Part shown: piece after piece, positions 3,698 to 64,000 of the stretch
Layout of the letters: every line of letters begins with the position of its first letter
How positions within the stretch are numbered: the first letter of the stretch is position 1
Assembly: GCF_900187995.1 (NCBI RefSeq)
Contig: NZ_FZNZ01000014.1
Coordinates: 1 to 64,000 of the forward strand
Direction of reading: 5' to 3'
DNA: 64,000 bases
Origin: Prevotella jejuni
GTDB taxonomy: Bacteria; Bacteroidota; Bacteroidia; Bacteroidales; Bacteroidaceae
Position numbers and translations under genes: made by a program
Notes under the pieces: model-generated
The model's database searches: none
The model's input: the letters and a program-made list of their open reading frames with translations, nothing else
Told to the model about the DNA's origin: nothing

Positions 3698-3746
3698 AAA
3701 CAAAAACCTACCTCCAACTAGAAATCACTTCTTGTAAAGAGGTAGG
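3698..3746 (-). terminator. Rho-independent terminator of the DGR operon
   Basis: On the minus strand CCTACCTC (3746-3739) and GAGGTAGG (3714-3707) form an 8-bp stem, followed by TTTTTGTTTG. It lies about 100 bp after the reverse transcriptase stop and would end the DGR transcript before the ATPase gene. The loop of about 24 nt is long for a terminator. Confidence 0.6.
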
Positions 3747-3843: not shown

Positions 3844-5034
3844 TTACTCAATATTCTTAAGACCAACCACATGAAATCCTCCATAAAAGAAGAAATAGCG
3901 ATAGAAAGGGTTGCGGTCAACAAGATGCTTTCGAAGTAAATAAGAGCTAAAATGCCCAAGATAGCCACAAAAGGAATTTATCACACTTCGCAACAGAAAG
4001 ATTTGTTTCTCTTTCATCGTTGTTCTACATCTACAAAGAGCTTCTATCAAACGCATTCGATTACGAAACTTGCATATCGTACGCCATCGAGGATAACGCC
4101 TATAAGGCATAATGTATGCTCCAAGAAAAGTCATACCCTTAGAACAGTGTTGCAAACTAATCTTCTTTGGGTGTAACGTAAGATGCAACTCATCATGCAG
4201 ATAATCACGAAACAGCCCTATCAATCTTGCCAGTTTACGGTGATCAGTATCTATAACATAAAAGTCGTCTACATAACGGCCATAATACTTCAAGCCCAAC
4301 TGACGTTTAGCAAACTGGTCAAGCTGATTAAGATAAATATTACTAAACAGCTGAGATGTCAGATCACCAATAGGAAGCCCTGAACCCTTTGCAGAACGGA
4401 AGAGACTCTTTGAAGGCGGTAATCCCTCCCAATCCTCCTTCCCCCCAACGATGCGTACATCACTTGTAGGGTCACGTAGAAGAATACTATCTATAAGGAA
4501 ATCAACCAGCTGGCGGTCGAATTTCTTATTCCATTCAGGTTTTCTATCCATCTCCTTACGTAATAGTTCTCGCAATTCACGCTTAGGAATACTCATAAAG
4601 TATCCTTTTATATCAAGCTTCAGCACGTACGCTGATTGTGTATAATTCTGTGTACAACTACGCAAATGATGCTCAAATCGTTCCACACCCTTCAACGTTC
4701 CTTTACCCACACGGCAAGAGTAACTATCATATATAAACGTTGTTTCAAACAGCGGTGCTATATAGTTAAAGAGCAGATGATGCACCACACGATCCTTAAA
4801 TGAAGAGGCAAAAATCTCACGCTGCACAGGGTCGAACGTAATAAAACAGATACAAGGTGATGGTCGATAAGTTCGAGTACGCAATTCATCGTAGAGATGC
4901 ATCAAGTTATGTTCAAGATTCATCTCAAACTTCATTTGACTCTCCGTGTTTCGCTTGTTCCTCCTTGCATCGTAGTAAGCGCTAAATATATCCCTCAATA
5001 AATCCATATTCTTAACGTCTCTACTTATTACCAT
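3844..5034 (-). CDS. DGR reverse transcriptase
   Basis: Retroelement-type reverse transcriptase that copies the template-repeat RNA into cDNA with adenine-directed errors. Visible RT motifs: LDIKGYF at about 140-146 (first catalytic Asp at 141), GLPIGDLTSQ at about 219-228 (the LPxG...SQ signature of DGR and group II-like enzymes), YVDD at about 254-257 (catalytic pair), and FLGAYI near 303. Length 396 aa is normal for a DGR RT. No maturase, endonuclease or X domain is seen. The reading frame overlaps the end of the TR-containing ORF by 14 nt; an alternative start is the Met at 5007. It is the last gene of the cassette, directly after the template repeat, the standard DGR order. Assignment rests on the motifs plus the adjacent TR/VR pair and Avd. 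Confidence 0.95.
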   Translation of the reverse strand: MVISRDVKNMDLLRDIFSAYYDARRNKRNTESQMKFEMNLEHNLMHLYDELRTRTYRPSPCICFITFDPVQREIFASSFKDRVVHHLLFNYIAPLFETTFIYDSYSCRVGKGTLKGVERFEHHLRSCTQNYTQSAYVLKLDIKGYFMSIPKRELRELLRKEMDRKPEWNKKFDRQLVDFLIDSILLRDPTSDVRIVGGKEDWEGLPPSKSLFRSAKGSGLPIGDLTSQLFSNIYLNQLDQFAKRQLGLKYYGRYVDDFYVIDTDHRKLARLIGLFRDYLHDELHLTLHPKKISLQHCSKGMTFLGAYIMPYRRYPRWRTICKFRNRMRLIEALCRCRTTMKEKQIFLLRSVINSFCGYLGHFSSYLLRKHLVDRNPFYRYFFFYGGFHVVGLKNIE

Positions 5035-5605
5035 TCAACTCGTCAACATCTCTCCCTCTCCTGTAGGCTGTAAATGCTGAGACCGGACGCGCCGCGAACC
5101 CATAGGTCCGATTGTTGTTGTTCAGCGGGTTCACGTTGCCCGAGTTGAAGTTCAGGTTGCAACCGTTGTTCGTGTTGTTCGGAACTGCCGACCAATAGTA
5201 ACCGTTGTTGCCGACGTTGTTGAGCGAACCATCATTGTTGTTGCGATAGCCCGAAGCAGGGAAAAATAGTAACCACTCATTAAATGAAGCATGGGGACCA
5301 CCACCATTCGTAATCCTATGAAAGAGAAACGAAATAAGGGCATGTGACCATCCAACAGATTGGGATAACATAACCAGCCAAGACGCATTGCCACGGGGCG
5401 TTTGCGTACCTTTTACATGTACTGGTGGGTTACTGGATTTACTAATGCACGCTGTCAACGACCTTAGTCGCTGACATTCTGGCTTAGCCTGAGTTAGGAG
5501 GGGAGAGAGAAGGAAGACGAGTAAAGTCATAAGCACAAAACAACCGAACGAGTCAGTATGCTTTGCGTATATTGTATTATAGGTTGTGATTAAAGTTTGT
5601 TTCAT
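5021..5605 (-). CDS. ORF containing the DGR template repeat; translation uncertain
   Basis: A 194-residue open frame begins at an ATG overlapping the Avd stop by 4 nt and runs into the RT gene by 14 nt, so it could be translationally coupled to both. Residues around 20-40 form a hydrophobic stretch ending in LLTQAKPE, like a signal peptide. From about residue 114 it reads through the TR in the same frame as the VR, giving 20 Asn residues in about 63 (AAC or AAT codons) and the framework WSAVP, YGFAARPVS. In known DGRs the TR acts as RNA and need not be translated, so this may be an incidental frame. Its middle part (5265-5540) has no recognisable domain. The alternative is a decayed copy of a variable protein that became the template. 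Confidence 0.4.
   Translation of the reverse strand: MKQTLITTYNTIYAKHTDSFGCFVLMTLLVFLLSPLLTQAKPECQRLRSLTACISKSSNPPVHVKGTQTPRGNASWLVMLSQSVGWSHALISFLFHRITNGGGPHASFNEWLLFFPASGYRNNNDGSLNNVGNNGYYWSAVPNNTNNGCNLNFNSGNVNPLNNNNRTYGFAARPVSAFTAYRRGRDVDELNGNK
5077..5264 (-). repeat. DGR template repeat (TR)
   Basis: This 188-bp stretch aligns without gaps to 6659-6846 in the variable lipoprotein gene at a constant offset of 1582. On the coding strand the TR has 49 adenines, mostly in AAC codons. By hand count 25 of the 26 differences to the VR are at TR adenines. The last 30 bp on the coding strand (5106-5077), GC-rich and identical in both copies, occupies the place of the initiation-of-mutagenic-homing sequence. 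It sits between avd and the RT gene, as in the Bordetella phage cassette. Confidence 0.95.
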
Positions 5606-5991
5606 ACTCCCGCTTCTTCTTTATTTGTACATTTAGTTGCGTTTGTTCCCTTTTGACTGTATTTATGCCATGCCGTCAGCTGCTTTGATATGCTTTCAGT
5701 CTGCAGGCAGAGTTGTGCAAACTGTGGTACACTTAGGTGGTGCATGTCTTTCAATAGGCGTATACGAAGCCTGATATGTACAAACACCTCAAGACATCTT
5801 CGTAGGATTTGCTCTTTCTCACGTTGACTATTTACTTGGTAAACCATCACCATCAACTCAACCAACTCATTCTTTAGGTCCTGTACCAGCGTGTATCTCA
5901 AGTCACGAGGTACATTGCGTGTACGTTGATAGACATCTAACAATAAGTCGTAGATAGCCTTAAACACTGGCAAATTATCATACTGTGCCAT
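5602..5991 (-). CDS. avd: DGR accessory variability determinant (Avd-like)
   Basis: A 129-residue, helix-rich, basic protein without membrane segments. Length, predicted all-helical character with the heptad-like stretch LKNELVELMVMVYQ, and position between the target gene and TR/RT match Avd, the four-helix-bundle protein that forms a barrel-shaped pentamer, binds the RT and TR RNA and is required for mutagenic retrohoming in Bordetella phage. The fold is related to the S23/four-helix-bundle family. The stop overlaps the start of the TR-containing ORF by ATGA, and the gene begins 19 bp after the preceding accessory gene, which suggests one transcript. Function is inferred from context and fold; sequence identity among Avd proteins is low. 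Confidence 0.85.
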   Translation of the reverse strand: MAQYDNLPVFKAIYDLLLDVYQRTRNVPRDLRYTLVQDLKNELVELMVMVYQVNSQREKEQILRRCLEVFVHIRLRIRLLKDMHHLSVPQFAQLCLQTESISKQLTAWHKYSQKGTNATKCTNKEEAGV

Positions 5992-6010
5992 GTCATTCTT
6001 CCTCTTTCTT

Positions 6011-6505
6011 TTAGTCGTTCAACTTTCCCTGCAATTGTGCTATAAACATCATACATTGCATAGGAGTACTATTAGCAACATTAAAGTCTCTCACCATCCT
6101 TATTATACTACCCGCATCAATATGTCCGGCACTTTCAGGCATTGTACTGTTGCTCGTCATACTGCCTGTTTGTGTAGACTCTTTTAGCTCTATTCCTTTC
6201 TTCCATTCGACAAAAGCATTCAAATCAATGGGTTCTGTCAGTCCTATAACTTTATGTGCATCATCTGATTCTATAATATTCCTCCCATTCAAATACTTAT
6301 CTTCTGACGAAGCAGGGAAGCCCACGTAAGCGACCTCCTCACCATTAAGAACCTTCAGCTGGCGTTTGATAACCTTAAAAGGATGTACAAAACTGCACAG
6401 GGCGAACGCTGAAGCTTCATAAGCACGAAAGAACAAGCCTTCACGATAGAGATTTATCCTGCAGGTATTCTTTTTCTCGGCCTCAACTATTTCTTTGATG
6501 TTCAT
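6011..6505 (-). CDS. DGR-associated accessory protein, MutS domain I-like
   Basis: A 164-residue protein encoded inside the DGR cassette between the variable protein gene and avd. Residues about 15-70 contain INLYREGLFFRAYEASAFAL, then VIKRQL, then YVGFPASSEDKYL, which resembles the mismatch-recognition (domain I) layout of MutS: xFYRxGxFYExF, then G-F-P and a helix. The C-terminal third is Ser/Thr-rich, then ends in a helical stretch. Surveys of DGRs describe a MutS-like (MSL) accessory family next to avd and HRDC types; I assign it there tentatively. No ATPase domain is present, so it is not a repair MutS. A role in nucleic-acid binding during homing is only inference. Confidence 0.6.
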   Translation of the reverse strand: MNIKEIVEAEKKNTCRINLYREGLFFRAYEASAFALCSFVHPFKVIKRQLKVLNGEEVAYVGFPASSEDKYLNGRNIIESDDAHKVIGLTEPIDLNAFVEWKKGIELKESTQTGSMTSNSTMPESAGHIDAGSIIRMVRDFNVANSTPMQCMMFIAQLQGKLND

Positions 6506-6540
6506 TGTTTCTTCTTATTACTTTGTTGTTTATTATCCTC

Positions 6541-6626
6541 GCCTTCATATACCGAAGGCAAGGATTTTTTTTCGACCGGCTACGCCGGTTTCTTTTGCCG
6601 GCGGGCGGGGCGATGCCCGCCGGCAA
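6541..6626. other. Three consecutive hairpins downstream of the VR, likely DGR target cruciform
   Basis: GCCTTC/GAAGGC (6541-6559, 7-nt loop), ACCGGC/GCCGGT (6575-6589, 3-nt loop), and a strong 12-bp stem TTGCCGGCGGGC / GCCCGCCGGCAA (6595-6626, 8-nt loop) follow one another. The last begins 33 bp beyond the VR and 28 bp beyond the stop of the variable gene. In the transcribed (minus) direction none is followed by a T-run. DGR targets carry a hairpin or cruciform just 3' of the VR that aids retrohoming; the TR has no such structure at its end, consistent with that role. A plus-strand terminator is possible because T-runs follow the first two stems on that strand. Confidence 0.6.
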
Positions 6627-6653
6627 TAAATCAAATGAATCAAATCAATCGAA

Positions 6654-9359
6654 TTATTCTGAGACCGGACGCGCCGCGAACCCATAGGCCCGAGCGCTGC
6701 TGCTCACCGGGCTCACGCCGCCCGAGCTGAAGCCCAGGTAGCAACCGCTGATCGTGCTGTACGGAACCGCCGACCAATAGTAACCGAGGCTGCCGACGTA
6801 GTCGAGCGAACCATCATTGTGGCTGCGATAGCCCGAAGCAGGGAAATTGATAGTAGCCGTCTTGCTGCTACTTGTCCAGAAGTTATGACCAAAATTGTTT
6901 TGGTAAGTCTGCCAATCGCTTGTACCATAAACATTCATAGTTCCTCCATTCTGACCATTTGCAGTAAAACCAGTAAACGCATTGGAAGCTGGCATCTTGA
7001 AACCTACAGGACAAGGATCGTAAACGGTCTTGACTACAGAGTTATCATTGAAACCTGTTGCCGTATTTTCGGCTGACCAAAGATTATAATAACTATAACC
7101 AGTTGGAGGAGTACTATACCATGACGAACCCCATGTATAGAAATTGTCTGGATGCTGAATACCATTCATAATAGACATATTATCACCTGCACTCTGCGTA
7201 AAATGGCTATTTGCTGCTAATTCGGATGCATCTACACCAGGGAAGGCATCCTTACGACCGAACTGGTAAAGTGTGGTAGCACCCTTCTTAACGTTACCAG
7301 GATTCTGGGTAATATTGATAACAGTCTCTTGTGCTACTCCACCATTCTTAATGGTCTGCACAACCTTGACTTTGACAGTACGAGCTTTGTCGTAGGTAGA
7401 ACCACTCCACTGGGTTGGCTTCCAACCCAAGGTTTCCTTAGTGAAGTTATAAACCTTACCCTGATAGTTGGTAACAGGAATCTTATCAAGTGCATCCTTA
7501 GGAGCAAACCACAAATGCCATGACCAAACAGTCGTACCACCCTTCTTAACAGCAACAACAGCATTACCGCTCTGAATGTCGCTTGCTGATACAGTGAAGT
7601 CGAGGAAACCCTCGCCACCATCATGCACAATAGAAGGAGAGTGAACGAGGTTGGCAGCATCTGCCCAAACCACCTCAGCACCATCAACGCCATTGTTAGC
7701 AGCGCCATTGGTCTTTTCTATCCAAGGGTCAGTGATGTTTTGGTTATTGTGGTCTTTAAAGTTATACAAAACGTATGAATTACCTGCAGCAGCATGGCTG
7801 GTGTAAGAGTTCGCATTGGTTGCACCGTTCTCGATGGCATTACCATAAACAAGCGGTATGCGATAATGACCGGGAGCTGAGATAACGTAACTATTAGCAG
7901 TGCTACGATTTTCTGAGCCGCCCTTCGTTGAAAGGTCGTAAGGAGTAGCTGTACCTAATTCTGTTGCCTCCTTAAGTGCCTTGTTACGTTTAGCGAGCAA
8001 ATCGGTAACGTCTTTGGTCAATGTGGCCGTACCTTGGTCGGCAGCAGTACCACCCGTGCCCTCGGTCTTGCTAAGGCTGGTCAGCCATGCAGGCTTTTCA
8101 CTCATAGAGAAAGTACCATCGTTATTGGCATCATAACCAACAACTTTCCATGCGACAGCCTGCTGCTGGTGTGTTGCCGGGTCTTCACGATAACTTGTGA
8201 TACCGTATGCCTGCGACTGGGTTTCATCATAATTAGCCGCACGGCTCGGGTCGGTTGGCGTGAGCGTGTAAGTCCAAGTAGAGGTAGTCTGGCTTAGCTT
8301 GTAAGTACGGGTTGTTCCCGCCTTCCATTCACCCTTTAAAGGTACGGTGATTTCTGTTCCATCGGTGCAGTGCACGTAAGCAGTCACATGGCCAGTAAGC
8401 TGCTGTGGTATCATATAGAACGTATAGTTATCGCCCGCATTACCCATGATGGTAACATTAGGGTTGGCACTTGTGCTCACACTGACACCCGAGAGGGTTG
8501 CATTGCCACGTGTGTCACTTGAGTGGTCCCAATCGGCCCCATTGCCATCAAACTGCTTAGAGAGTACATACTTACTCTTCATCACAGCACCACGCAATTC
8601 CACCTTATCGATGGTCTTATTCCAAGAAAGGTTCTGACCCACAGCAAAGCGAATACCCGTAAGAGCGTGGCGGAAATCGAGGTTGGTTGTAGGCTGCTGA
8701 AACTGCGTAGCATACTCAACATCACCCGTACAAGCCGTCATCAAGTCGACCTGCTTTGTCACATCACTGTTTACCTCGAAATCAACACTTGGGCTACCAC
8801 TCGTAGCATCGGTGTTATTGATGGTCATCTTTGCGTAGCTCTCTGCGTTAGGATAGACAGCAAAGAAGCGAGCCTTAGGCTGTGCAAACGACCATCGGAT
8901 AGGCGAATAGAGTTCGCCATTGCTCTTGGTCTTCTTAGCATGGAACCACTCGGGCGTGGTGAGGATGCCAGAGGCTGCTGTACCACGGATACCTGAGGCA
9001 GAGAAGTCGCCAAGGGTAGAGGTAGCTATGATGTCAGCACGTGTGCGGGCGTCAGCCTTAACAGGATTGACACCCTCGACAGTAGTCTCTATCAAGCAGA
9101 CGTCAATATTGCGGTTACTATGGGCTGCGAGCTTACCACCAGCGAGGTCGTTGCTGCCCAAGCCAGGCGTGATGGCACCACGTGTCATAGCACCACGGCT
9201 GATAGCCCCTTCCTGCACATCGTTTACACTAAAGCGGACGAGGGCATCATTGCCATTCGTTCCACCATTATCCAAATCGTCGTCGGCACACGATACTGCC
9301 GTCAACGCTGCGCCACCGGCCAAGAGAGCCGAGCAGGCGTAAAAGAAAAGTTTGTTCAT
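6654..9359 (-). CDS. DGR variable protein: surface lipoprotein with fimbrillin-like and C-type-lectin-like domains
   Basis: A 901-residue exported protein. The N-terminus has a lipobox, LTAVSC with Cys24, so it should be anchored in the outer membrane. Residues about 50-350 resemble fimbrillin-like Bacteroidales surface proteins (LDFRHALTGIRFAVG, MIPQQLTG, GTTRTYKL). The middle carries Ig-like Thr/Asn-rich stretches with TLGWKPTQWSG and VINITQNPG. The C-terminus, from about 770, begins DPCPVGFKMPAS and ends YGFAARPVSE, the layout of the Fibrobacter-paralogue/formylglycine-enzyme type C-type-lectin fold used by many DGR targets. The VR codes for residues about 838-900. Diversification would change a ligand-binding surface displayed outside the cell. 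The start codon lies at the edge of a roughly 100-bp tandem repeat. No promoter was found directly upstream; it may be cotranscribed with the small genes upstream. Confidence 0.92.
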   Translation of the reverse strand: MNKLFFYACSALLAGGAALTAVSCADDDLDNGGTNGNDALVRFSVNDVQEGAISRGAMTRGAITPGLGSNDLAGGKLAAHSNRNIDVCLIETTVEGVNPVKADARTRADIIATSTLGDFSASGIRGTAASGILTTPEWFHAKKTKSNGELYSPIRWSFAQPKARFFAVYPNAESYAKMTINNTDATSGSPSVDFEVNSDVTKQVDLMTACTGDVEYATQFQQPTTNLDFRHALTGIRFAVGQNLSWNKTIDKVELRGAVMKSKYVLSKQFDGNGADWDHSSDTRGNATLSGVSVSTSANPNVTIMGNAGDNYTFYMIPQQLTGHVTAYVHCTDGTEITVPLKGEWKAGTTRTYKLSQTTSTWTYTLTPTDPSRAANYDETQSQAYGITSYREDPATHQQQAVAWKVVGYDANNDGTFSMSEKPAWLTSLSKTEGTGGTAADQGTATLTKDVTDLLAKRNKALKEATELGTATPYDLSTKGGSENRSTANSYVISAPGHYRIPLVYGNAIENGATNANSYTSHAAAGNSYVLYNFKDHNNQNITDPWIEKTNGAANNGVDGAEVVWADAANLVHSPSIVHDGGEGFLDFTVSASDIQSGNAVVAVKKGGTTVWSWHLWFAPKDALDKIPVTNYQGKVYNFTKETLGWKPTQWSGSTYDKARTVKVKVVQTIKNGGVAQETVINITQNPGNVKKGATTLYQFGRKDAFPGVDASELAANSHFTQSAGDNMSIMNGIQHPDNFYTWGSSWYSTPPTGYSYYNLWSAENTATGFNDNSVVKTVYDPCPVGFKMPASNAFTGFTANGQNGGTMNVYGTSDWQTYQNNFGHNFWTSSSKTATINFPASGYRSHNDGSLDYVGSLGYYWSAVPYSTISGCYLGFSSGGVSPVSSSARAYGFAARPVSE
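6659..6846 (-). repeat. DGR variable region (VR)
   Basis: Target copy of the template, forming the 3' end of the lipoprotein gene. Compared with the TR, Asn codons became Ser (the most common change), Tyr, Asp, Gly, His, Leu, Ile and Ala, while the framework residues DGSL, GYYWSAVP and YGFAARPVS are kept. The only non-adenine difference is at 6707 (TR 5125), a coding-strand C to G giving Leu to Val. Confidence 0.95.
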
Positions 9360-9360
9360 T

Positions 9361-9622
9361 GTTGTTATTTGAGAAGTGAAAGGAGTGAAGGAGTGAAAGG
9401 GAGTTAAGACAATACCCTAACCTTACTTTACACACTTCCATCTCCATTGTTTAAATGTTGTTTTTGAGGAGTGAAAGGAGAGAAGGAGTGAAAGGGAGTT
9501 AAGACAATAGTTCTATTGTCAAATTCCTAACCTTACTTTATACACTTCCAACTCCATTGTTTAAATGTTGTCTTTGAGGAAAAGAAGGAGTGAGAGAATA
9601 AAAGAGCGTGTAGACAATAGCG
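9361..9622. repeat. Tandem repeat of 96 and 110 bp in the leader of the variable protein gene
   Basis: Units start at 9361, 9457 and 9567 with GTTGTNNTTGAG and continue with GTGAAAGGAG, GTTAAGACAATA, TAACCTTACTTTA and CTCCATTGTTTAAAT. The second unit has 14 extra bases that create the palindrome GACAATAG-TT-CTATTGTC. The third unit decays after about 55 bp. The array begins directly in front of the variable protein's start codon, so it forms most of its 5' leader. No gene is seen in 9360-9729. Confidence 0.85.
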
Positions 9623-9680: not shown

Positions 9681-9736
9681 ACTTGTCTACTTGTAAACTC
9701 GTCTACTCGTCAACTTGTCAACCCGTCAACTATCCC
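9681..9736. repeat. 8-bp tandem array, ACTYGTCW type
   Basis: Seven units with strict 8-bp phase: ACTTGTCT, ACTTGTAA, ACTCGTCT, ACTCGTCA, ACTTGTCA, ACCCGTCA and a final ACTATCCC that includes the stop codon of the small gene ending at 9730. The same unit is found at 24461-24564. Confidence 0.85.
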
Positions 9737-9933
9737 TCCAAATTATCATCATCACCTCCGTCCTCTTCAGTAGGAGGTACAACCTGAATACTGCCTGGAT
9801 GAGAAGTAGTACCGCCACCACCTGGGCGAACGAGAGGACTCTCGGCAAGGAAATTGCCCTCAGTCTCAACCTTGACCACCTCAACGGTAGGACGAACATA
9901 AAGTTGTCGCACGGTCTGTCTGATTTTCTTCAT
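9730..9933 (-). CDS. Small hypothetical protein, Gly/Pro/acidic tail
   Basis: A 67-residue ORF: a basic N-terminal half (MKKIRQTVRQLYVRPTVEVV) followed by KVETEGNFLAESP, a GGGG stretch and an acidic C-terminus. No signal peptide, membrane segment or Cys. Short proteins with an RPxVEVVxxExEGxxL core are familiar from Prevotella, often near surface-protein loci, but I know no function. It lies 370 bp upstream of the DGR target gene in the same direction. Its stop codon falls in the first unit of an 8-bp tandem array. It could be a leader gene of the DGR transcript. Coding is supported by a clear ATG and a composition typical of the genus rather than by a domain. Confidence 0.6.
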   Translation of the reverse strand: MKKIRQTVRQLYVRPTVEVVKVETEGNFLAESPLVRPGGGGTTSHPGSIQVVPPTEEDGGDDDNLEG

Positions 9934-10202: not shown

Positions 10203-10424
<222 letters not shown>

Positions 10425-55217: not shown

Positions 55218-57500
55218 CTAAGGAACCTCCTTAATCGGCACAAAGTAATAAGTCTTACCAGCCACAAGGACGGTCCTTAAGCGGCCAGACTTGAAGCGAC
55301 TCTCAAGGTCGACGAGCCTGTCAAGCATCTCCTTATAGGCTGCCTCCCATTTACTCTCATCACATTTCTTACGTGTGATGTCCTTTACTCGTACGATATT
55401 ATTCAATACGTCAGAGCTTGGGACACTCAATCGATGATAGAAGACAGACGAGATAGACGACTTATTCTTCAGTACTGTGCGGTAAGAAAGACGGTTGACT
55501 AAGTCGCTCTGCAGCTTAAAGTTCCTTCTCAACTCAAACAGTTGCTGATTAGAAAGAGAGTCGGCATGGAAATAAGGCATGAGGGCACGATAGCCTTCAA
55601 GGAGGTTTTTCAACTCAACAGCATCAAAGAGATAACCCTCATCGTAGGTTGACAACTCCATAGGAGAGATTAACATCTCCTTGAAATAGAGGTCGTTGAT
55701 GTTGTTCTTCTCTATGCTCTCAACAGGAACACCAGCATCTTTAGTGGTGTTAACCATCTCTTGTGTTGGGATAGCACGCAGTGCACCGTATTGGTTCTCA
55801 GCGTCGGTAGAGACCGCTACCAGTTTCTGGTTGCGCTCATCAATTCGTACGAAGAGAGAGTCGAGAACCCTTGCAAAGCCAGTGTTCGTCAGTTCTGTAT
55901 CAAGACGAGGATAGACGAAACCACCCGTCACAATGCCGTTCTTCGGTGCATCCAATACGAAAGCATTCTCGCTCTCAGTACTGATATCGGTAAACAAGCC
56001 ACCCTTCGACCAGTCAGAGGCACATAGATAGTCCTTCGCATAACTCATATACTCAGAGGTGTTATTGTCTAACAAGGTCTTTGACTGTAGTACGAAGCTC
56101 TGGTAAGAAGGCGTCAGTCGACCAAGCATCTGCGCTAAGAACAAGGTAGCAGAACGTGTGTACATCTCTGCGTTAATCTCAGAAGTAAACGTAGGGAACT
56201 CATCTGTACCCAAGATGATAAACACATTGTTCTCGAACTTAGTATAAGGAGTCTCAGAGAATATCTTGTTCATGGCAGCATGAAAGCCAGCCCCACCAGA
56301 AACAGGGAGCGTGTTGGGTGCAGTTGCATTAGCCAAGAAGTCAATCCAACTACCAAAGTCGGATGTCAACGCAAGGTGCTTGTTGCCCTTATCAGACACG
56401 GCTGTAGCAGAAAATCTGACCTGACTGGCCTTGCCAAACTTGCCCTCCAAGCCCTGTAAGGCATTGAGCAAGTTGCGCACCTGCATGCGGTCTTGACTAT
56501 AGAATATCAGATGGATATTCATCTTCTTACTGTTCTCAATCAGCTGATCGAGGTCGGCAACCGACACGTCCTCACCCTTAGCATTAACCATCATCGACTT
56601 CTTTCTGTCCCAAAGAGCGAGTGGCATATTGATAGCAACACGTGGGTCTTCATAGTTGCCCAGATAGTTGCCGTCAGAAGTGAAGAGCAGGTTAGACCCA
56701 AGCTGATAGTTGCCAAAGACAGGATAAGGCGAGTCGAGCAAGAAAACACGGTTCTGTCCTACCATCGCAATGAGGTCGGATGGAACCCATCCCAAGACTG
56801 TTCGCAAGGAATCAGACAGTGCTGGACGGTCCGCAACAAGTACGGCCTGTCGGCTGACATCATACTTATAAGCATAGACGATTTGCCCATCTACCAACTT
56901 TCCTTTGGTCTTCTCAAGGAAGAAGGGGTCGTTATAGAGATTGAGCGAGTCCTTTGTGAAGAACGTCTTAAGGTCGGACAAGCGTGCAGCCCTTGTAGCA
57001 CCAACACGATAGCGAAGCGGGAAGTTGTTGTCTTTAGACACAAAAGAATGATTGAACTCCAAGACAGCATTCTTGTCAATCCAGCCTACGAAAGGCGACT
57101 TCTTAGCATCCTTAAAGTGAGTACGGCCACTGTAAAGGGGTGCGAAGAGTCCCTTAGGCTGTCCAAGTAGCTCTTGGTTGGCTGCAACCACCTTATAATA
57201 ACCATTCTTCTCACCGATGACATAGAAAGGAGAGCCCATCTTCTGCTCGCTTAACACACGCTGTGCGTAGGGTTCAGCGTATGCTTTATTATGGCTTCTG
57301 TCGGAGAATACGATATGAATATCGTTATTATCACGAACCTGTTGAGCCCCTGCTCCACCCACTGGGTAATTGAAACTGGTATGACCAACGGTCTTCGTCT
57401 TGTCATACCGAGCCACTTGAGCAGTGAGACATTGCGGTAAAGCAAGGCAGAAGACAAGTCCAGACAACCCATATAACGTCTTTATAAATCCTTTCTTCAT
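55218..57500 (-). CDS. tssR: T6SS-iii protein TssR
   Basis: A 760-residue exported protein: signal peptide (1-27, ending CLTAQV), then regions of SH3-like and beta-rich character (GSPFYVIGEKNGYYKVVAAN, SPFVGWIDKNAVLEFN, VLGWVPSDLIAMVGQNRVFL), and a VWA-like section (MNIHLIFYSQDRMQVRNLLN, NNVFIILGTDEFPTF). A helical C-terminal part follows (LNNIVRVKDITRKKCDESKW). This fits TssR, found only in Bacteroidota type iii T6SS and thought to act at the periplasmic side of the membrane complex. It overlaps the PKD gene by 4 nt and is the last gene of the operon visible here. Confidence 0.8.
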   Translation of the reverse strand: MKKGFIKTLYGLSGLVFCLALPQCLTAQVARYDKTKTVGHTSFNYPVGGAGAQQVRDNNDIHIVFSDRSHNKAYAEPYAQRVLSEQKMGSPFYVIGEKNGYYKVVAANQELLGQPKGLFAPLYSGRTHFKDAKKSPFVGWIDKNAVLEFNHSFVSKDNNFPLRYRVGATRAARLSDLKTFFTKDSLNLYNDPFFLEKTKGKLVDGQIVYAYKYDVSRQAVLVADRPALSDSLRTVLGWVPSDLIAMVGQNRVFLLDSPYPVFGNYQLGSNLLFTSDGNYLGNYEDPRVAINMPLALWDRKKSMMVNAKGEDVSVADLDQLIENSKKMNIHLIFYSQDRMQVRNLLNALQGLEGKFGKASQVRFSATAVSDKGNKHLALTSDFGSWIDFLANATAPNTLPVSGGAGFHAAMNKIFSETPYTKFENNVFIILGTDEFPTFTSEINAEMYTRSATLFLAQMLGRLTPSYQSFVLQSKTLLDNNTSEYMSYAKDYLCASDWSKGGLFTDISTESENAFVLDAPKNGIVTGGFVYPRLDTELTNTGFARVLDSLFVRIDERNQKLVAVSTDAENQYGALRAIPTQEMVNTTKDAGVPVESIEKNNINDLYFKEMLISPMELSTYDEGYLFDAVELKNLLEGYRALMPYFHADSLSNQQLFELRRNFKLQSDLVNRLSYRTVLKNKSSISSVFYHRLSVPSSDVLNNIVRVKDITRKKCDESKWEAAYKEMLDRLVDLESRFKSGRLRTVLVAGKTYYFVPIKEVP

Positions 57501-58471
57501 TTTCCTATATTTCTTTGAGTTACTTCTATTTTAGTAATACGATGGAAGTCATCCACCTTAACATCATCTATGCTGACACGACTATAACGGTTGCTTTCCA
57601 GATAATGAAGGCCTTGACAGTAGTCAGGGAATAGGTTATAGCGTTCGCCATTCACCTGTACAATCACCCTTCCACCATTGCCTCTGAGGTAGGTATCATT
57701 GATATAACCCATGTTAGAGCGCACTGCCTCTTGGTCTCTTGCGCCTGCATTGGCTATTGCCTGTAGGCGGCGTTTAATGTCGTTCTGCACCAATGCCAAC
57801 GTGTCAATAGGTTCTTGCGGTTCAGCCTGTTCCTCTTCTCCCATGTCAGCAGGCACTGCGTCTACCTTATCAAGGATGGTAACAACCTGAGAAACAGGGT
57901 AGAGTGTGGTGTTAGTCTTAAGCTTCACGAGGTATTTACCTGGTTTATCATACTTATAAACGACCTGACGTTCGAAGGCGTCAATCGTTCCGCTCTCGCC
58001 AAATTCCCATAACCAACTTGTCATACCATCGCCATCAGCAGAGAAGACAAGACTTTCGCCTACGAAACCCTGCTTTGGTCCGACAATCTTAGGGACAGAG
58101 TCAACGGCCACGGTGTCCTTTGTGAGCTTAACAACATCAATCGTCTTCTCCTTAACAACCTTACCATCAACCTGCAAGGTGATGAGGTATCGGCCCGCTT
58201 GATGATAGGTATAGCTGATATTAGGATTACCAACAATACTATCCCCATTACCCATCTTCCATAGAACTCGCTTATCCACAACGGCAGACGAGTCGTTAAC
58301 AATGAATTTCAGTGGCTCATTTACTTCCAACTGATTGTTCACATTCTGATCTTGGATATAGAAATCCAGATTCTTGTCTACCGTCCTTGAAGGAAGCAGC
58401 AAAGCAATCACAAGCCCCACAATAGCCAAGCCCGAGACGATTGCCAAAATGATTTTTTGTCTTTCAGTCAT
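57497..58471 (-). CDS. T6SS-iii membrane protein with PKD-like domains (TssP-like)
   Basis: A 324-residue protein with one N-terminal membrane segment (about 6-26, IILAIVSGLAIVGLVIALLL) and a periplasmic part with two PKD-like units: VNEPLKFIVNDSSAVVDKRV to YTYHQAGRYLITLQVDGKVV (about 50-110), and VGESLVFSADGDGMTSWLWE to YKYDKPGKYLVKLKTNTTL (about 135-200). The C-terminal third is helical and then beta-rich (VIVQVNGERYNLFPDYC). Its place between TssR and two small membrane genes, with overlapping or adjoining ends, marks it as one of the Bacteroidota-specific components (TssO to TssR). I favour TssP but cannot prove which. Confidence 0.7.
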   Translation of the reverse strand: MTERQKIILAIVSGLAIVGLVIALLLPSRTVDKNLDFYIQDQNVNNQLEVNEPLKFIVNDSSAVVDKRVLWKMGNGDSIVGNPNISYTYHQAGRYLITLQVDGKVVKEKTIDVVKLTKDTVAVDSVPKIVGPKQGFVGESLVFSADGDGMTSWLWEFGESGTIDAFERQVVYKYDKPGKYLVKLKTNTTLYPVSQVVTILDKVDAVPADMGEEEQAEPQEPIDTLALVQNDIKRRLQAIANAGARDQEAVRSNMGYINDTYLRGNGGRVIVQVNGERYNLFPDYCQGLHYLESNRYSRVSIDDVKVDDFHRITKIEVTQRNIGK

Positions 58472-58479
58472 AATTATAT

Positions 58480-58929
58480 TTATTGAATTTGAGTCTTTAG
58501 CTCTTCCAGAATACGCTTTCTATCCTCTTTGGTCTTCGATGCCCAATACAGGTTCTGCTTGATGTCAAAGTAGGCTTGAATGGTCTTGAAGGCCTGCATA
58601 CAATATAGATACTTCGTATTGTAGGAGTGTTGTCTGTAATTGTTCTGTAACTGCGACATCCTGTCCTTTATCTCTCCGATACGTTGCGTCTGCTGAATAT
58701 CAAAGTTAAGGGAGTCGATATCGGTCTTGAGAGCCTTCATCTGTTCGCCCATCTTTTGTTGATCGGATAAGACAGCCTCAGCGTCATTGATCTCTTGGAC
58801 CGTGTTCCCTGTCACAGAAACAGGTATAGGCATCACGTACTTACAGACTAATATGTATAACAAAGTCACTGAGAAGAACAGTAACAGCGTGAACTTTATG
58901 GTTGACCATATTTTCTCATCTCTTGTCAT
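58480..58929 (-). CDS. T6SS-iii small membrane protein
   Basis: A 149-residue protein: one membrane segment at about 10-28 (IKFTLLLFFSVTLLYILVCK), then a helical periplasmic part with long coiled-coil potential (MKALKTDIDSLNFDIQQTQR, IKDRMSQLQNNYR). Topology and size resemble its upstream neighbour, so it is probably a paralogue or partner in the same membrane complex (TssO/TssQ class). No lipobox. It lies 8 bp before the PKD gene and 16 bp after the previous gene. Confidence 0.65.
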   Translation of the reverse strand: MTRDEKIWSTIKFTLLLFFSVTLLYILVCKYVMPIPVSVTGNTVQEINDAEAVLSDQQKMGEQMKALKTDIDSLNFDIQQTQRIGEIKDRMSQLQNNYRQHSYNTKYLYCMQAFKTIQAYFDIKQNLYWASKTKEDRKRILEELKTQIQ

Positions 58930-58945
58930 AATAATCTTCTGTTAT

Positions 58946-59428
58946 TTATCTTTTCTTATTCTTCTTTATATCTTGTGCCCTTTGTATCTGCTCCATGATG
59001 TAGTCAAGGTCGCGCTTCTCGTCGAAGAAGGTTGCAGAAACATCTTGCGTCGACTGTAACTGATTGAACAGTACGTTATAAAGGACATAGCTGGTGGTGT
59101 CAGCATCAGCCTGTCGAATCTCGTCTTGCATCCCTTGCCACTTGCGGGCAATAATCATCTGGTATTGAGCCTGCTCATTGTCCGTACGCTTCTGAGTGTA
59201 GAGATTGTTCATATCTTTGAAGATCTCGTCCATACGATAGTTGTATCCCGCTTGCTTACGGAAGATGTCATCATAGCGAACCTTCTTCTCGTCTAACAAG
59301 CTGATGCCCCTCTCGGCTGTCTTTAACGTACAAATGGCAAACAGAACGAAGAGTAATAGAGTGAAACTAAAGATGAAGATGAAGGAACTCATCGCCTGTC
59401 GGCGTTCTTTCTTATTTTTCTCTGTCAT
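58946..59428 (-). CDS. tssO: T6SS-iii transmembrane protein, TssO-like
   Basis: A 160-residue protein: positively charged N-terminus (MTEKNKKERRQAMSS), one membrane segment at about 16-36 (FIFIFSFTLLLFVLFAICTL), then a helical periplasmic domain (YNYRMDEIFKDMNNLYTQKR, YQMIIARKWQGMQDEIR). This matches the TssO description: a small bitopic protein encoded right after TssK in type iii T6SS loci. Assignment is by context and topology; alternatives are TssQ or an unnamed component. Confidence 0.6.
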   Translation of the reverse strand: MTEKNKKERRQAMSSFIFIFSFTLLLFVLFAICTLKTAERGISLLDEKKVRYDDIFRKQAGYNYRMDEIFKDMNNLYTQKRTDNEQAQYQMIIARKWQGMQDEIRQADADTTSYVLYNVLFNQLQSTQDVSATFFDEKRDLDYIMEQIQRAQDIKKNKKR

Positions 59429-59444
59429 TGTGAGTACCTCCTAC

Positions 59445-60596
59445 TTAGTCCCAAACCTTCCATGATTTCCTCTCATTCTCAGACGCTTTACCACTGTGTT
59501 CCTCGCTGATAATGATGTTCTCCTTGATGAGTCCGACGTATTCCAAGTCACTTAACTTCTGGAAGAGGGTGTGGATTACTTTGAGGAAAGCGTATATCAA
59601 TGAGAATGACTGGCTTATCTCGCCATGGTTATAACTTATATGTGCCACCTTACTGGCATTGTTCATAAATTCAGAAGGACGTATGTTGGTCCACTCATCG
59701 AAGTATTGTAAAAGTGTTTCAAAGTCCTTCTCTGGTAATGAACGTAGTGTTGAAAGTAAGAGAGTGGCAAGCTCATTGGCTAAGTGTACGACGTGTATAG
59801 GTGCCTTCTCACCTAATATATATTTCAACTCGAAGATATGTCGACCGTAAAAGGCCTTAATCACATCGCATAAAGCAAAGGTATTGTCAGCCAAGACACT
59901 ACGGTGTGGATTGGTGATGTTCTTTGAATAGACCTTCAAAGCATTATTATGCGTCTCCTCAAGGGTCTTCTCAAAATAAGTCAAGAACTCTGACGCCTTA
60001 TCAAAGAAGTTCGTTTGCTGAATAGCAGGGATATAGTCTTCATCAACCGCAAAGGTTCCGTTGTCAACAACTATCTTACTTACGATAAGGCTATTACCCT
60101 CTAAAAAGGCTTTGTTAAGGTTCTGCTCCGCTACAAGCTGCAGTGTTATCTCTGGCAGAACATACGGATGATGCAATGGAGTAGTCTCTGGGTCAGGTAC
60201 ACCAACAGGCAACATTTTATATGGATTCACCGTAAGCATGACACAAACGACCTGTCGAGTCGATAGGTCAATATCCATATTCTGGAGTGTAGCCTCTGGT
60301 ATAAAGTCACCATAGAGGTCCTTTGTGTAGGAGATATGGAAGCCGTTTCTTGTGACTGCATTACATGAGATTAAGCGCACAGTTAAGGTCTTTGCCGTCT
60401 CCCCTCGTACGTCTAAGACAACCGAATGGTCAGCTCCCTCCATGCTTTGCCCTAACCCATAATTATAGCTTGTGAGCGTGTCCTCCCTATTTAGTTTCTG
60501 CATTTCAACTACGTTATAGTAGGTTTCAAAGAAATGAGAACTACTAATCTTCTGTCCGTTAACCCAGTTAACAGGTAAGTGATCAATCTTCTTCAT
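59445..60596 (-). CDS. tssK: T6SS baseplate-membrane connector TssK
   Basis: A 383-residue cytoplasmic protein. The N-terminal VNWVNGQKISSSHFFETYYN corresponds to the TssK start (family members begin with a W..G..L..QHFQ pattern); a beta-rich shoulder domain and a helical centre (about 210-300) follow, then a C-terminal head domain of about 100 residues. In T6SS-iii the protein links baseplate and membrane complex. It overlaps tssN by 14 nt and precedes the TssO-like gene by 16 bp. The TssK identity is moderately secure because of low conservation across subtypes. Confidence 0.75.
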   Translation of the reverse strand: MKKIDHLPVNWVNGQKISSSHFFETYYNVVEMQKLNREDTLTSYNYGLGQSMEGADHSVVLDVRGETAKTLTVRLISCNAVTRNGFHISYTKDLYGDFIPEATLQNMDIDLSTRQVVCVMLTVNPYKMLPVGVPDPETTPLHHPYVLPEITLQLVAEQNLNKAFLEGNSLIVSKIVVDNGTFAVDEDYIPAIQQTNFFDKASEFLTYFEKTLEETHNNALKVYSKNITNPHRSVLADNTFALCDVIKAFYGRHIFELKYILGEKAPIHVVHLANELATLLLSTLRSLPEKDFETLLQYFDEWTNIRPSEFMNNASKVAHISYNHGEISQSFSLIYAFLKVIHTLFQKLSDLEYVGLIKENIIISEEHSGKASENERKSWKVWD

Positions 60597-61467
60597 GCTG
60601 TATATCGTTTATGCTTTTTACTCGTTTTATATAGATAACTTGGTTCTTCTTAATCCTATTCTCTGAAGCAGTTCGCCGTGGGTCAAGCATCCTAATGAAC
60701 AATGGATAGCGGAACCACTTGTTCGTATAGAATATCCAACCACTCTCTGAATTATCCATCGCTATGTCTATCTGTGCCTGTGGGAAGCGTCGGTTCTGGT
60801 CTTCTACAAGCCAATCAAACCAGTCGCCTAAGGCAATCCCCTCTGCCAAACGTACTGAGAGCGTAGTATAACCATAGTCGCCAATATGCCTCTTAAGCTT
60901 TACCTTCACCGTTGTAGCCTTGAAGGTATCAAGCGTATCCCAGTAGTTACGGTTAAAGCCACTATGGTTGATGCGCCATAAGTCATATATTGGAGGTTGG
61001 ATATTACGGAAGAAACGATAGCTTCTAAATACGAAGTAGGGTATAGAAAACCACCAGACAGCTGTCATAGCCCATGGTGTGTACTCTAATCCATTGCTAA
61101 TCCAATCAAAGATAAGGTAATATGACCACATACCAAATATCCCTGACAATACCATAACAAGGATTTCCATAGCCATGTCGTCATTCTTCTTACTGATAAA
61201 CGTTCGTAGCGCCCACAAGTAGAAGAACCCAAGAACTAAGTAAGCAACAACTGTCAAGAATAGTCCTCCCCATACATACTCATTCCTAAGATACCCCAGA
61301 AGGGACGGAATAGCAAGGAAGATAGCCGTTATCAATGAGAAGACAATAATCCTCTTCACGCTCAACTGCTGTCGAACAGACTTCAAGGCACCCATGACAG
61401 ATACCATGATGATAGCCAAGAGCGGTGCAAGTAAGTACTTTACAAAGAATAATATTAATGGTTTCAT
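60583..61467 (-). CDS. tssN: T6SS-iii membrane protein TssN
   Basis: A 294-residue integral membrane protein with about five membrane segments in the first 160 residues (LILFFVKYLLAPLLAIIMVS; IVFSLITAIFLAIPSLLGYL; GGLFLTVVAYLVLGFFYLWA; MEILVMVLSGIFGMWSYYLI; TAVWWFSIPYFVF), followed by a cytoplasmic domain (LWRINHSGFNRNYWDTLDTF, GDWFDWLVEDQNRRFPQ). TssN is the polytopic subunit of the Bacteroidota T6SS, taking the place of TssL/TssM of other subtypes. Overlaps tssK by 14 nt. Confidence 0.8.
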   Translation of the reverse strand: MKPLILFFVKYLLAPLLAIIMVSVMGALKSVRQQLSVKRIIVFSLITAIFLAIPSLLGYLRNEYVWGGLFLTVVAYLVLGFFYLWALRTFISKKNDDMAMEILVMVLSGIFGMWSYYLIFDWISNGLEYTPWAMTAVWWFSIPYFVFRSYRFFRNIQPPIYDLWRINHSGFNRNYWDTLDTFKATTVKVKLKRHIGDYGYTTLSVRLAEGIALGDWFDWLVEDQNRRFPQAQIDIAMDNSESGWIFYTNKWFRYPLFIRMLDPRRTASENRIKKNQVIYIKRVKSINDIQHEED

Positions 61468-61526
61468 TATATGTTGTAAGTTCGTGTCATAGCCTAAAAG
61501 CTATTGTTCTAAGCTAAGTTCTTTTA

Positions 61527-62462
61527 TTATAAGTTCGTATCGTAACCCAAAAAGTTCTGTCCTAAGACAAGTTCAGTATTTGATGTTATTGTATAGATGA
61601 GCCTTATGTCTCTTGAAGAAAGGAGGAAGAAAGACAAGATATACCTTACTATCTCCATTTGCTTCTTCAGTCTACTCTCTGTCACACTATCGTGGAAGAT
61701 AAGCTTCACCTCCACATCGTCCAATTCACAAAGCAACCGTCCATCAAGACCAGAGTCAACTCCTAACACACAGTCGCCCAAGTTCATATAAGGTAAGTCG
61801 TCCTCGTAATGATAGACATAACGCATCTGAGCATCTATATCACATACCGTCAAGAGTAGTTCCTCCAGTGCTGAAAGGTTTTCCTTATAGTCCTCCACCT
61901 TGCGAAGACACAGGAATAACTTATATCGTTCACCTGCTGTAAGGGGAGCCGACTTGGCAAAGAAGACATTAGTAAAGCTCTTGAAAATGACGTTCTCATA
62001 CGGTTCATCAAACAACGTCAGCTGTCGTTCGAAGATAGACACACTATCATGGAACATCATTGTATCAAAGGGAGAGAAGAAGTGAACGGCTTGCTCGGCC
62101 TTCTTTCTATTCAGACGGATAGCCTCAACGACCTCCTTATTACTCATCCCAGGTGCACTCAGCGAAATAGGATGGAATAGGAACTCTGGCAACTGATGGT
62201 AGAAGCCATTGCGAGCGATGTTCAGTATGATTCGATCTCGTAGTTGTCCATCTTTATAAACCTCCTCTTTTTGCAGGTCGATGATGTCTTGTGAGTTCAC
62301 ACGACTATTCATTCCATGGCTCACAACAACCGTCTTATCCAGTAGGTTCTCATCTGTAACGAACTGCAACTCAGCATAGAACACCTCCGCAATAAGGTTT
62401 CTCGCGTCACTATTACAGAACCTTTCTAAGTCTCTTTCAGATGTTGTTATACGTGATTCCAT
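61527..62462 (-). CDS. T6SS-iii baseplate-type protein, TssG-like suspected
   Basis: A 311-residue soluble protein with no membrane segment. It has an acidic, helical N-terminus (MESRITTSERDLERFCNSDA), ILNIARNGFYHQLPEFLFHP near residue 80, and a beta-rich C-terminus (YHYEDDLPYMNLGDCVLG, IRLIYTITSNTELVLGQNFL). The pattern of a Y/F..LPxxLFHP motif followed by a beta-sandwich fits baseplate proteins of the TssF/TssG group, and the place between clpV and tssN fits too. It overlaps clpV by 16 nt. Which of the two subunits it is remains open. Confidence 0.55.
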   Translation of the reverse strand: MESRITTSERDLERFCNSDARNLIAEVFYAELQFVTDENLLDKTVVVSHGMNSRVNSQDIIDLQKEEVYKDGQLRDRIILNIARNGFYHQLPEFLFHPISLSAPGMSNKEVVEAIRLNRKKAEQAVHFFSPFDTMMFHDSVSIFERQLTLFDEPYENVIFKSFTNVFFAKSAPLTAGERYKLFLCLRKVEDYKENLSALEELLLTVCDIDAQMRYVYHYEDDLPYMNLGDCVLGVDSGLDGRLLCELDDVEVKLIFHDSVTESRLKKQMEIVRYILSFFLLSSRDIRLIYTITSNTELVLGQNFLGYDTNL

Positions 62463-64000
62463 TGTAGATTGCCATCTTTATAAGTTGCGATAATATGGTC
62501 ACCGGGCTTGATCATTTCTGATACTATGAGCTTTGAGATAGTCTTCTTTAGGTAGGTTCTTACCACACCAGCGATAGGGCGTGCTCCATACTGTGGTGAG
62601 AAGCCCTTTGAAGTGAGGTATGCAATGGTCTCTGGGGCCAAGTCTAACTGTATTTCCTTCTGCTCTAACAGCTGTTTCTGTAGGCGTGAGAACTGTAGAA
62701 GGAATATCTGTTGTGCAACCTGTTCGGTAATAGGTGAGAAGGGGACAACCTCTGTCAGACGACCCAAGAACTCTGGTCGGAAGTACTTCGACATCACTTC
62801 TATCAATTCGTTAGACGTTGGCTGGTGTCCTTTCTGTATCTGTTCTGCAATCCATTGACTACCAATATTCGACGTGAAGATGATGATTGCGTTAGAGAAG
62901 TCGCCTTCTCGTCCGAGCTTATCATGCACCTTTCCTTCGTCCATAATCTGTAGGAAGATATCATAAACACTACTGTGTGCCTTCTCGATCTCGTCGAACA
63001 GTACAACAGAGTAGGGTTTCTGGCGTATCTTCGTTACCAGTAAGCCACCCTCTTCATAGCCTACATAACCCGGAGGAGCACCATAGAGCAAAGCAGCAGA
63101 GTGTTCTTCCTTAAACTCAGACATATCGAAACGTATCATGGCCGTATCGTCATCGAAAAGAAGGTCGGCCAACGACTTTGTCAGCTCAGTCTTACCTGTA
63201 CCCGTAGGACCAAGGAAGAAGAACGAACCAATAGGTTTCTTCGGATCGCTCAGTCCGCTTCGTGACTCAATGATAGCGTCAGACAGCGTTCGAATAGCCT
63301 TATCTTGTCCTTTGACTCTTTCGTGTAGCTTGGTCTCTATTCCTAACAGTCTATCCTTCTCTTGAGCCTGAATCTTACCGATAGGAATGCCTGTGTCGTC
63401 TGCTACAACCGACTCTATCTCTAACGAACTAACCTTCTCTATGCCTTTCTCTGAGAGCACTGTCAATTCGTTAAGTATCTTTCCAAGCTTATTGAGCTTC
63501 TCTTCTGTCGAGTCGTCATCAGTAAGTATATAGTTGTCTTCAACCTTTGAAGTCAAGACAACACTCACCTTATTAAATATAGTATAATAAAGTAGATGCA
63601 AGTCGAAATCGCTCACCTCTTCTATTGGCATTGCCTTGTATTTCTCATACTGTTCGACAAGCTGCTCCACAATACCTACCGCATTCTTATTACTCAGTCT
63701 CACTGAAGCGGCCGTACTGTCTATCAAGTCTAATGTAGAGGCTGGTTGACTCTTCTCCTTATAATATCTGTTAGAAAGGTTATAAGCACTGATGAACGAT
63801 TCCTCCGTCATAGCCAGACTATAAAAGGCTTGTAGTGTTGGCCTGTGTCTTAACAATGCACTGCGAAGGATGTTAGGCTCAAGTTCTTCTACATTAATGA
63901 TGTTCAACTTGTTAGCGATGGAATGTTTCTCTACATGCTTACGATAGGCATCCATCGAGAGCACCATTAACAGCGTGACAGAACCGTCACATATCTGTGC
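62447..64000 (-). CDS. clpV: T6SS ATPase ClpV, 5' end beyond the window
   Basis: An AAA+ disaggregase of the ClpB class that recycles contracted sheath. The open frame continues past the right edge (the codons before the first in-window ATG read on without a stop, giving ICDGSVTL), so the window holds only the C-terminal part (about 517 residues). The end of the first nucleotide-binding domain is followed by VVADDTGIPIGKIQAQEKDR, and the second has Walker A GPTGTGKTE, Walker B VVLFDEIEKAH and sensor 1 IIIFTSNIGS. The C-terminal D2 small domain (FRPEFLGRLTEVVPF, FSPQYGARPIAGVVR) is complete. The first-domain remnant (MVLSMDAYRKHVEK) is more divergent than in ClpB. The ATG at 63967 is internal. 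Confidence 0.9.
   Translation of the reverse strand, partial: AQICDGSVTLLMVLSMDAYRKHVEKHSIANKLNIINVEELEPNILRSALLRHRPTLQAFYSLAMTEESFISAYNLSNRYYKEKSQPASTLDLIDSTAASVRLSNKNAVGIVEQLVEQYEKYKAMPIEEVSDFDLHLLYYTIFNKVSVVLTSKVEDNYILTDDDSTEEKLNKLGKILNELTVLSEKGIEKVSSLEIESVVADDTGIPIGKIQAQEKDRLLGIETKLHERVKGQDKAIRTLSDAIIESRSGLSDPKKPIGSFFFLGPTGTGKTELTKSLADLLFDDDTAMIRFDMSEFKEEHSAALLYGAPPGYVGYEEGGLLVTKIRQKPYSVVLFDEIEKAHSSVYDIFLQIMDEGKVHDKLGREGDFSNAIIIFTSNIGSQWIAEQIQKGHQPTSNELIEVMSKYFRPEFLGRLTEVVPFSPITEQVAQQIFLLQFSRLQKQLLEQKEIQLDLAPETIAYLTSKGFSPQYGARPIAGVVRTYLKKTISKLIVSEMIKPGDHIIATYKDGNLQWNHV

Follow-up and report, generated by a model that had tools for sequence, protein, structure and literature searches.

The 64,000-nt stretch of Prevotella jejuni DNA analysed here (contig NZ_FZNZ01000014.1, hereafter the window) very probably carries a chromosomal diversity-generating retroelement (DGR) of the type equipped with both an MSL and an Avd protein, a known kind of system. 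All of the analysed DNA is Prevotella DNA, from a genome of 3.65 Mb. The locus combines a reverse transcriptase (RT) of the DGR clade with the corresponding sequence motif, a template repeat (TR) and a variable repeat (VR) mismatched at adenines, a VR at the 3’ end of its gene with hairpins behind it, the accessory proteins Avd and MSL, and homing over evolutionary time. As the original prediction from the sequence had stated, the DGR is complete and its parts point in one direction: every part that it named is present on the minus strand of 3844-9359, in the order target gene with VR, hairpins, msl, avd, RT-7 RNA, TR, RT and terminator. The structured RT-7 RNA at 5262-5483, between avd and the TR, had been missed. 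The features are as follows, each with the evidence on which it is based.

6654-9359, minus strand: DGR target gene encoding a putatively exported lipoprotein of 901 aa (AVSC-ADDD) of a fimbrillin-like family, with a C-terminal VR (open reading frame and full-length homologs)
6656-6846, minus strand: VR (86% identity to the TR, 25 of 26 mismatches at TR adenines)
6535-6655, minus strand: post-VR element, an AT-rich stretch and three hairpins at 6595-6626, 6575-6589 and 6535-6565 (DNA fold, conservation in Prevotella vespertina)
6011-6505, minus strand: MSL accessory protein of 164 aa, predicted MutS domain I fold and C-terminal helical part without the MutS ATPase (PF01624 in relatives, AlphaFold model)
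5602-5991, minus strand: Avd, 129 aa (PF22296 bAvd, NF033474)
5262-5483, minus strand: RT-7 structured RNA (RF03028), its 3’ end overlapping the first 3 nt of the TR (Rfam match, covariation, position in related loci)
5074-5264, minus strand: TR with 20 AAY codons in the VR frame (comparison with the VR)
3844-5034, minus strand: DGR RT, starting at 5034 or, by comparison with P. vespertina, at 5007 (PF00078, tree, motifs)
3707-3746, minus strand: likely terminator, a stem-loop followed by UUUUUG (fold z = -3.25)

The three hairpins that had been noted behind the VR were recovered, and the element folds at z = -6.4 relative to shuffled sequences. The stem-loop and U-run at about 3707-3746 probably provide the terminator said to close the operon; a consensus terminator scan does not list it because its loop is longer than the scan permits.

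The TR and the VR each comprise 191 nt and are 86% identical. Except for one, all 26 mismatches between them fall at TR adenines (17 A>G, 5 A>T and 3 A>C), which has a chance probability of about 5e-14; a C/A difference at the repeat edge, at the third base from the end, was counted apart from these. Of the 20 AAC or AAT codons in the TR, 19 read differently in the VR, with the third base changed in none, and the end of the VR coincides with the stop codon of the target gene. The claim that the lipoprotein gene ends in a VR with a matching TR is thereby borne out. Moreover, a related cassette whose TR/VR pair could be read was present at 17 further loci in Prevotellaceae, and at 15 of these the mismatches were confined to TR adenines, although the scoring of the scan favours such pairs. 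A DNA search of the own genome with the TR recovered just the TR, the VR and short weak matches, the best two of which lie in other lipoproteins with a related end, and further targets of this TR in the genome were rejected on these grounds.

The same cassette, with every part in the same order, is present in P. vespertina (NZ_VVIQ01000003.1), where the RT is 86% and the target 80-82% identical to their window counterparts and RT-7 scores 142 bits. It differs in its VR and in its flanking genes, which diverge past a common upstream stretch. Eighteen of the 20 VR changes in P. vespertina lie at adenines (P = 3e-9). Between the TRs of the two species there are 13 interior differences. Each VR carries the base of its own TR at 11 of these, and at the remaining two the window TR has an adenine that is changed in the window VR, each VR matching its own TR at every non-adenine TR difference. 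Among the sites with one and the same base in both TRs, the VRs are different at 26 of 47 adenines versus 3 of 130 other bases. Since each VR tracks its own TR and the VRs differ at shared adenines, homing ran in both lineages after the species split, and the pattern is the footprint expected from repeated TR-to-VR copying with adenine errors. The non-synonymous rate (dN) is well below the synonymous rate (dS) in RT, avd, msl and target between the two species, as under purifying selection. The post-VR element is 96% identical over 100 nt, as against about 79-81% for the neighbouring genes. The original prediction had proposed a comparison of sister strains and had regarded a VR identical everywhere as evidence against a DGR; at the level of species, which is what the comparison covers, the VRs differ as predicted.

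In a phylogenetic tree, the reverse TRANSCRIPTASE clusters with Brt of the Bordetella phage BPP-1 and annotated phage DGR RTs with support of 99/98. Three RTs from group II introns and a retron-like RT encoded in the same genome stand apart from this DGR clade. The prediction had been made contingent on such a placement, and the RT lies inside the clade. All three motifs attributed to it, LDIKGYF, LPIGDLTSQ and YVDD, occur in the product of 3844-5034, which matches PF00078 with 61 bits. LPIGDLTSQ follows the pattern IGxxxSQ, in contrast to QGxxxSP in group II RTs, and the group II intron model TIGR04416 reached 105 bits against a cut-off of 300. A hidden RNA element at the start of the RT gene was rejected, as synonymous change was not clearly lowered in that part. 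A second RT of the genome (L001, G000 C58:75444-76034, 441 aa) has retron RT models as its nearest matches (NF042941 at E = 1.5e-77, under the cut-off).

The newly recognised RNA at 5262-5483 matches the Rfam family RT-7 over the full model (1-191) with 133.5 bits, the gathering score being 116.8. Matches to RT-7 turned up in 3 of 398 genomes of Prevotella and in 6 of 399 of Prevotellaceae, several of them under the gathering score. MSL and Avd lie upstream in all eight distinct RT-7 loci and an RT lies downstream in all but one, which meets a contig end; in all seven loci with a placeable TR, RT-7 sits between avd and the TR. Its edge falls no more than 4 nt from the TR start at five of the six resolved junctions, with overlaps of 3-4 nt in the window, P. 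vespertina and the loci L174 and L055. The two are separated by 1 nt in L175 and by 10 nt in L176, and in L177 the match is partial and further upstream of the TR. TR/VR mismatches at adenines amount to 12/12 in L174, 27/27 in L175, 24/24 in L176, 20/20 in L177 and 17/17 in L055. Five of 12 RNAalifold pairs changed on both sides with pairing kept, all of them in the first hairpin and its closing pairs. As the thermodynamic fold of the whole leader-TR-spacer RNA was no better than that of shuffled sequences (z = -0.34), we claim for the leader only the Rfam match and the covariation. A search of viral contigs for the RT-7 core motif found none. The spacer between TR and RT measures 39 nt, or 66 nt if the RT starts at 5007. 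The position of RT-7 suggests that it may define the 5’ limit of template copying, either halting the RT or docking the complex; a link of RT-7 to DGRs may already be on record.

Of the two accessory proteins, the Avd-like one was confirmed by a profile check, with PF22296 (bAvd) scoring 42.8 bits against a cut-off of 40 (E = 8e-11) and NF033474 giving E = 3.4e-13, below that model’s own cut-off. MSL is too small for the MutS ATPase. A match to the MutS-I profile PF01624 was found in 11 of 17 members of its family, the best at 1.9e-6. The AlphaFold model of MSL has a mean confidence (pLDDT) of 79.5 overall and 85-93 in residues 11-100. Its residues 1-84 align with residues 12-95 of E. coli MutS at Z values of 6.0-6.9, and the top 35 rows of the comparison are MutS-family chains. 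These Z values are middling, yet no unrelated fold comes near, and by its predicted structure the protein has the fold of MutS domain I. The relationship to MutS is carried by this fold comparison, because a tightened MSL profile gave no MutS match among PDB sequences and a wider one found MutS only at E = 0.6. The alignment is offset by 11 residues at either end, which places MSL F25 on Phe36 and R27 on Glu38 of MutS, the residues of the FXE motif that reads mismatches. F25 is conserved in nearly all MSL relatives, and 16 of 17 have a basic or polar residue at the position of the glutamate. In DGR experiments with E. coli, mutS was deleted to retain substitutions (PMC12875486). We hypothesize that MSL might shield the mutated heteroduplex from host mismatch repair. 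Scans of viral contigs with RT, MSL and the post-VR element yielded no close DGR relative, and more distant relatives of MSL do occur there.

The lipoprotein signal AVSC-ADDD suggests that the target is exported to the surface. The window protein itself has no Pfam match; full-length relatives match Mfa_like_1 (PF13149, E = 3.5e-16 to 7e-11), the best being a 65% identical relative, and through these homologs rather than the window protein a fimbrillin-like surface lipoprotein is supported. Of 299 Prevotella genomes, 35 encode full-length homologs, and a single genome often has two to four of them. A match to Fib_succ_major in 4 of 22 target relatives (best 4.6e-5) was also obtained, and the variable domain may adopt a C-type-lectin fold and bind a ligand. 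A domain 42% identical to it is encoded in a predicted viral contig (L066 6798-9362). The own genome holds two similar lipoproteins of 523-536 aa (L005 on C38 and L006 on C86) that share a related motif, GGYYWSS, in their C-terminal part; an HU-like gene lies behind each of them. Upstream of the target gene, a 110-nt unit occurs about twice in tandem at 9416-9620, and a small conserved open reading frame of 67 aa lies at 9730-9933 on the minus strand, likewise found upstream of the P. vespertina target. At 10218-10249, about 0.9 kb upstream of the target, an (AG)16 tract stands at the end of a small open reading frame, and a (CT)n tract occupies the matching place in P. vespertina (L021 2857-2879); this tract could be a phase-variable switch.

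In 18 of the 19 genomes with target relatives, no RT like that of the window was found. Nevertheless, several of these relatives (L069 and L124 in genome G208, L120 and L121 in G147, L125 in G012 and L131 in G076) carry C at 17-19 of the 20 third positions matching the AAY codons of the TR, compared with 6 of 20 in the own paralog C59 and 2 of 20 in L132. The P values of this NNC fingerprint range from 1e-5 to 3e-7 against the gene background and from 0.03 to 2e-4 when NNY codons only are considered. The post-VR element is kept in L121, L125, L124 and L134 (the last in G046) with 77-92% identity over 49-96 nt; the first three also have the NNC fingerprint and L134 is without it. Neither RT nor MSL nor RT-7 was found in G012, G147, G208 and G046, although cassettes may have been missed in draft assemblies and masked stretches. 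The fingerprint genes are scattered across the target tree with fingerprint-less relatives interspersed. Loss of the mutator after diversification is the simplest reading of these sequences, which would make the genes possible retired DGR targets. Tandem repeats of about 41 nt stand directly behind target relatives in two genomes (oriented coordinates L120 5146-5290, L122 6066-6267 and L124 3138-3346).

The following mechanism is consistent with these data. The operon would be transcribed from the minus strand, and the template RNA would consist of the structured RT-7 leader, the TR and a short spacer. RT and Avd would synthesize cDNA across the TR, misincorporating opposite template adenines, and synthesis would presumably stop at the junction of RT-7 and TR or close to it. 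This mutated cDNA, bound or shielded by MSL while mismatched with its partner strand so as to escape host mismatch repair, would then be exchanged for the VR at the end of the lipoprotein gene, with the 3’ end of the VR and the hairpins behind it as guides. By this process the 20 AAC/AAT codons could become NNC/NNT, each with 15 possible residues and never a stop, so that the C-terminal domain of an anchored fimbrillin-like lipoprotein would be rewritten while its scaffold stays fixed, and the product would be displayed on the surface and bind a ligand. A bolder combined reading, which we offer tentatively and consider doubtful as a whole, describes a DGR subtype in which RT-7 at the 5’ side of the TR sets the 5’ boundary, a MutS domain I protein with altered FXE motif shields the heteroduplex, and the mutator is discardable, with target, VR and hairpin surviving as a frozen variant.

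Several observations weigh against the interpretation as an operating DGR with the parts described. The lone mismatch off the TR adenines is an interior C>G, and two VR changes in P. vespertina are likewise off adenines. The window MSL alone matches PF01624 at a non-significant E of 0.22, and what stands of the predicted MutS-I-like accessory does so through its relatives and its predicted structure. The variable domain was modelled at a pLDDT of only 34 and no solved relative of it was found in the PDB; the fimbrillin-like part of the original description of the target holds by way of homologs, and the C-type-lectin-like part could not be demonstrated. Finally, the activity shown for the cassette is that over evolutionary time, and homing in living cells today is presumptive. 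The cassette might be a recent fossil with intact parts whose homing ceased in this strain, leaving the VR as a frozen gene end. Family members in G012, G147, G208 and G046 have kept the post-VR element in the apparent absence of the mutator, so that retirement seems to happen in this target family. Here, however, RT, Avd and MSL have stayed intact and evolve under purifying selection, the VR agrees with its own TR wherever a difference does not involve an adenine, and a single mismatch in 26 unrelated to adenines implies almost no VR decay, and we regard a fossil as unlikely.

Other explanations fare worse. The open reading frame 5021-5605 spans the TR, is open over 194 aa (about 200 aa in P. 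vespertina) and starts here in overlap with the avd stop, as a real secreted protein whose end is a second product of the repeat might. Its pre-TR part, however, is the RT-7 RNA and differs from P. vespertina by 29, 17 and 24 changes at codon positions 1, 2 and 3, with dN/dS of about 0.65 and low synonymous change, unlike all neighbouring genes; a gene in the avd-TR gap was rejected on this pattern and the RT-7 match, and such a protein is very unlikely. Gene conversion between lipoprotein paralogs instead of reverse transcription could draw on the paralogs C59 and C50 in the own genome and on two to four in many relatives, but the paralog ends show neither DNA-level similarity to the TR nor the NNC bias, and conversion would not restrict changes to template adenines, which renders this source of VR variation extremely improbable. 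That the RT belongs to a retron, a group II intron or a defence system and the repeat pair is incidental is scarcely credible: it does match group II, Drt3a and retron profiles, but all scores are far below the curated cut-offs, its clade and IGxxxSQ motif are those of DGRs, and Avd, TR and VR accompany it.

Apart from the DGR, the window contains at 55218-63967, on the minus strand, part of a type VI secretion locus of the Bacteroidota type with TssR, TssN and a ClpB-like AAA protein.

DGRs diversify proteins in a targeted way, and their mechanism is known mainly from one phage. A natural comparison set is formed by two sister species in which both cassettes have been functional since the split, by loci from several genera in which RT-7 adjoins the TR, and by relatives that have retained the VR element but lack a mutator. 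It adds useful detail on DGR RNA, MSL and mutator loss and makes three questions testable, namely what determines the 5’ end of the template copy, what MSL does and what becomes of a target after mutator loss. With a target probably exposed on the surface of a Prevotella that lives with a host, VR variation may affect binding to host, neighbours or phages.

Among known systems, the DGR of BPP-1 (mtd-avd-TR-brt) shares the order target(VR)-avd-TR-RT, Avd and a related RT, and adenine-directed homing and a stem-loop behind the VR are established for it (PMC12875486), whereas the window DGR has a bacterial lipoprotein as target and the additional MSL protein. The RNAs differ in position as well: judged by RNA family matches, RT-7 lies at the 5’ side of the TR in the window, with only 39-66 nt between TR and RT, whereas RF03022 (DGR RNA) of BPP-1 lies 3’ of the TR in a 144-nt spacer before brt. 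This spacer of BPP-1 is reported to recruit RT-Avd and prime synthesis, and a motif in the end of avd to stop synthesis (PMC12875486). MSL is a known DGR accessory, and the described family likewise consists of small proteins resembling MutS domain I (PF01624) encoded in DGR operons (PMC10053308); the window MSL differs in being paired with Avd and in having kept Phe36 with the FXE Glu38 replaced by Arg. DGRs of Bacteroides are reported to act on the tip pilins of type V pili (Macadangdang et al., cited in PMC12632263), and resemble the window DGR in combining a Bacteroidales lipoprotein or pilin-like target with a diversified binding part.

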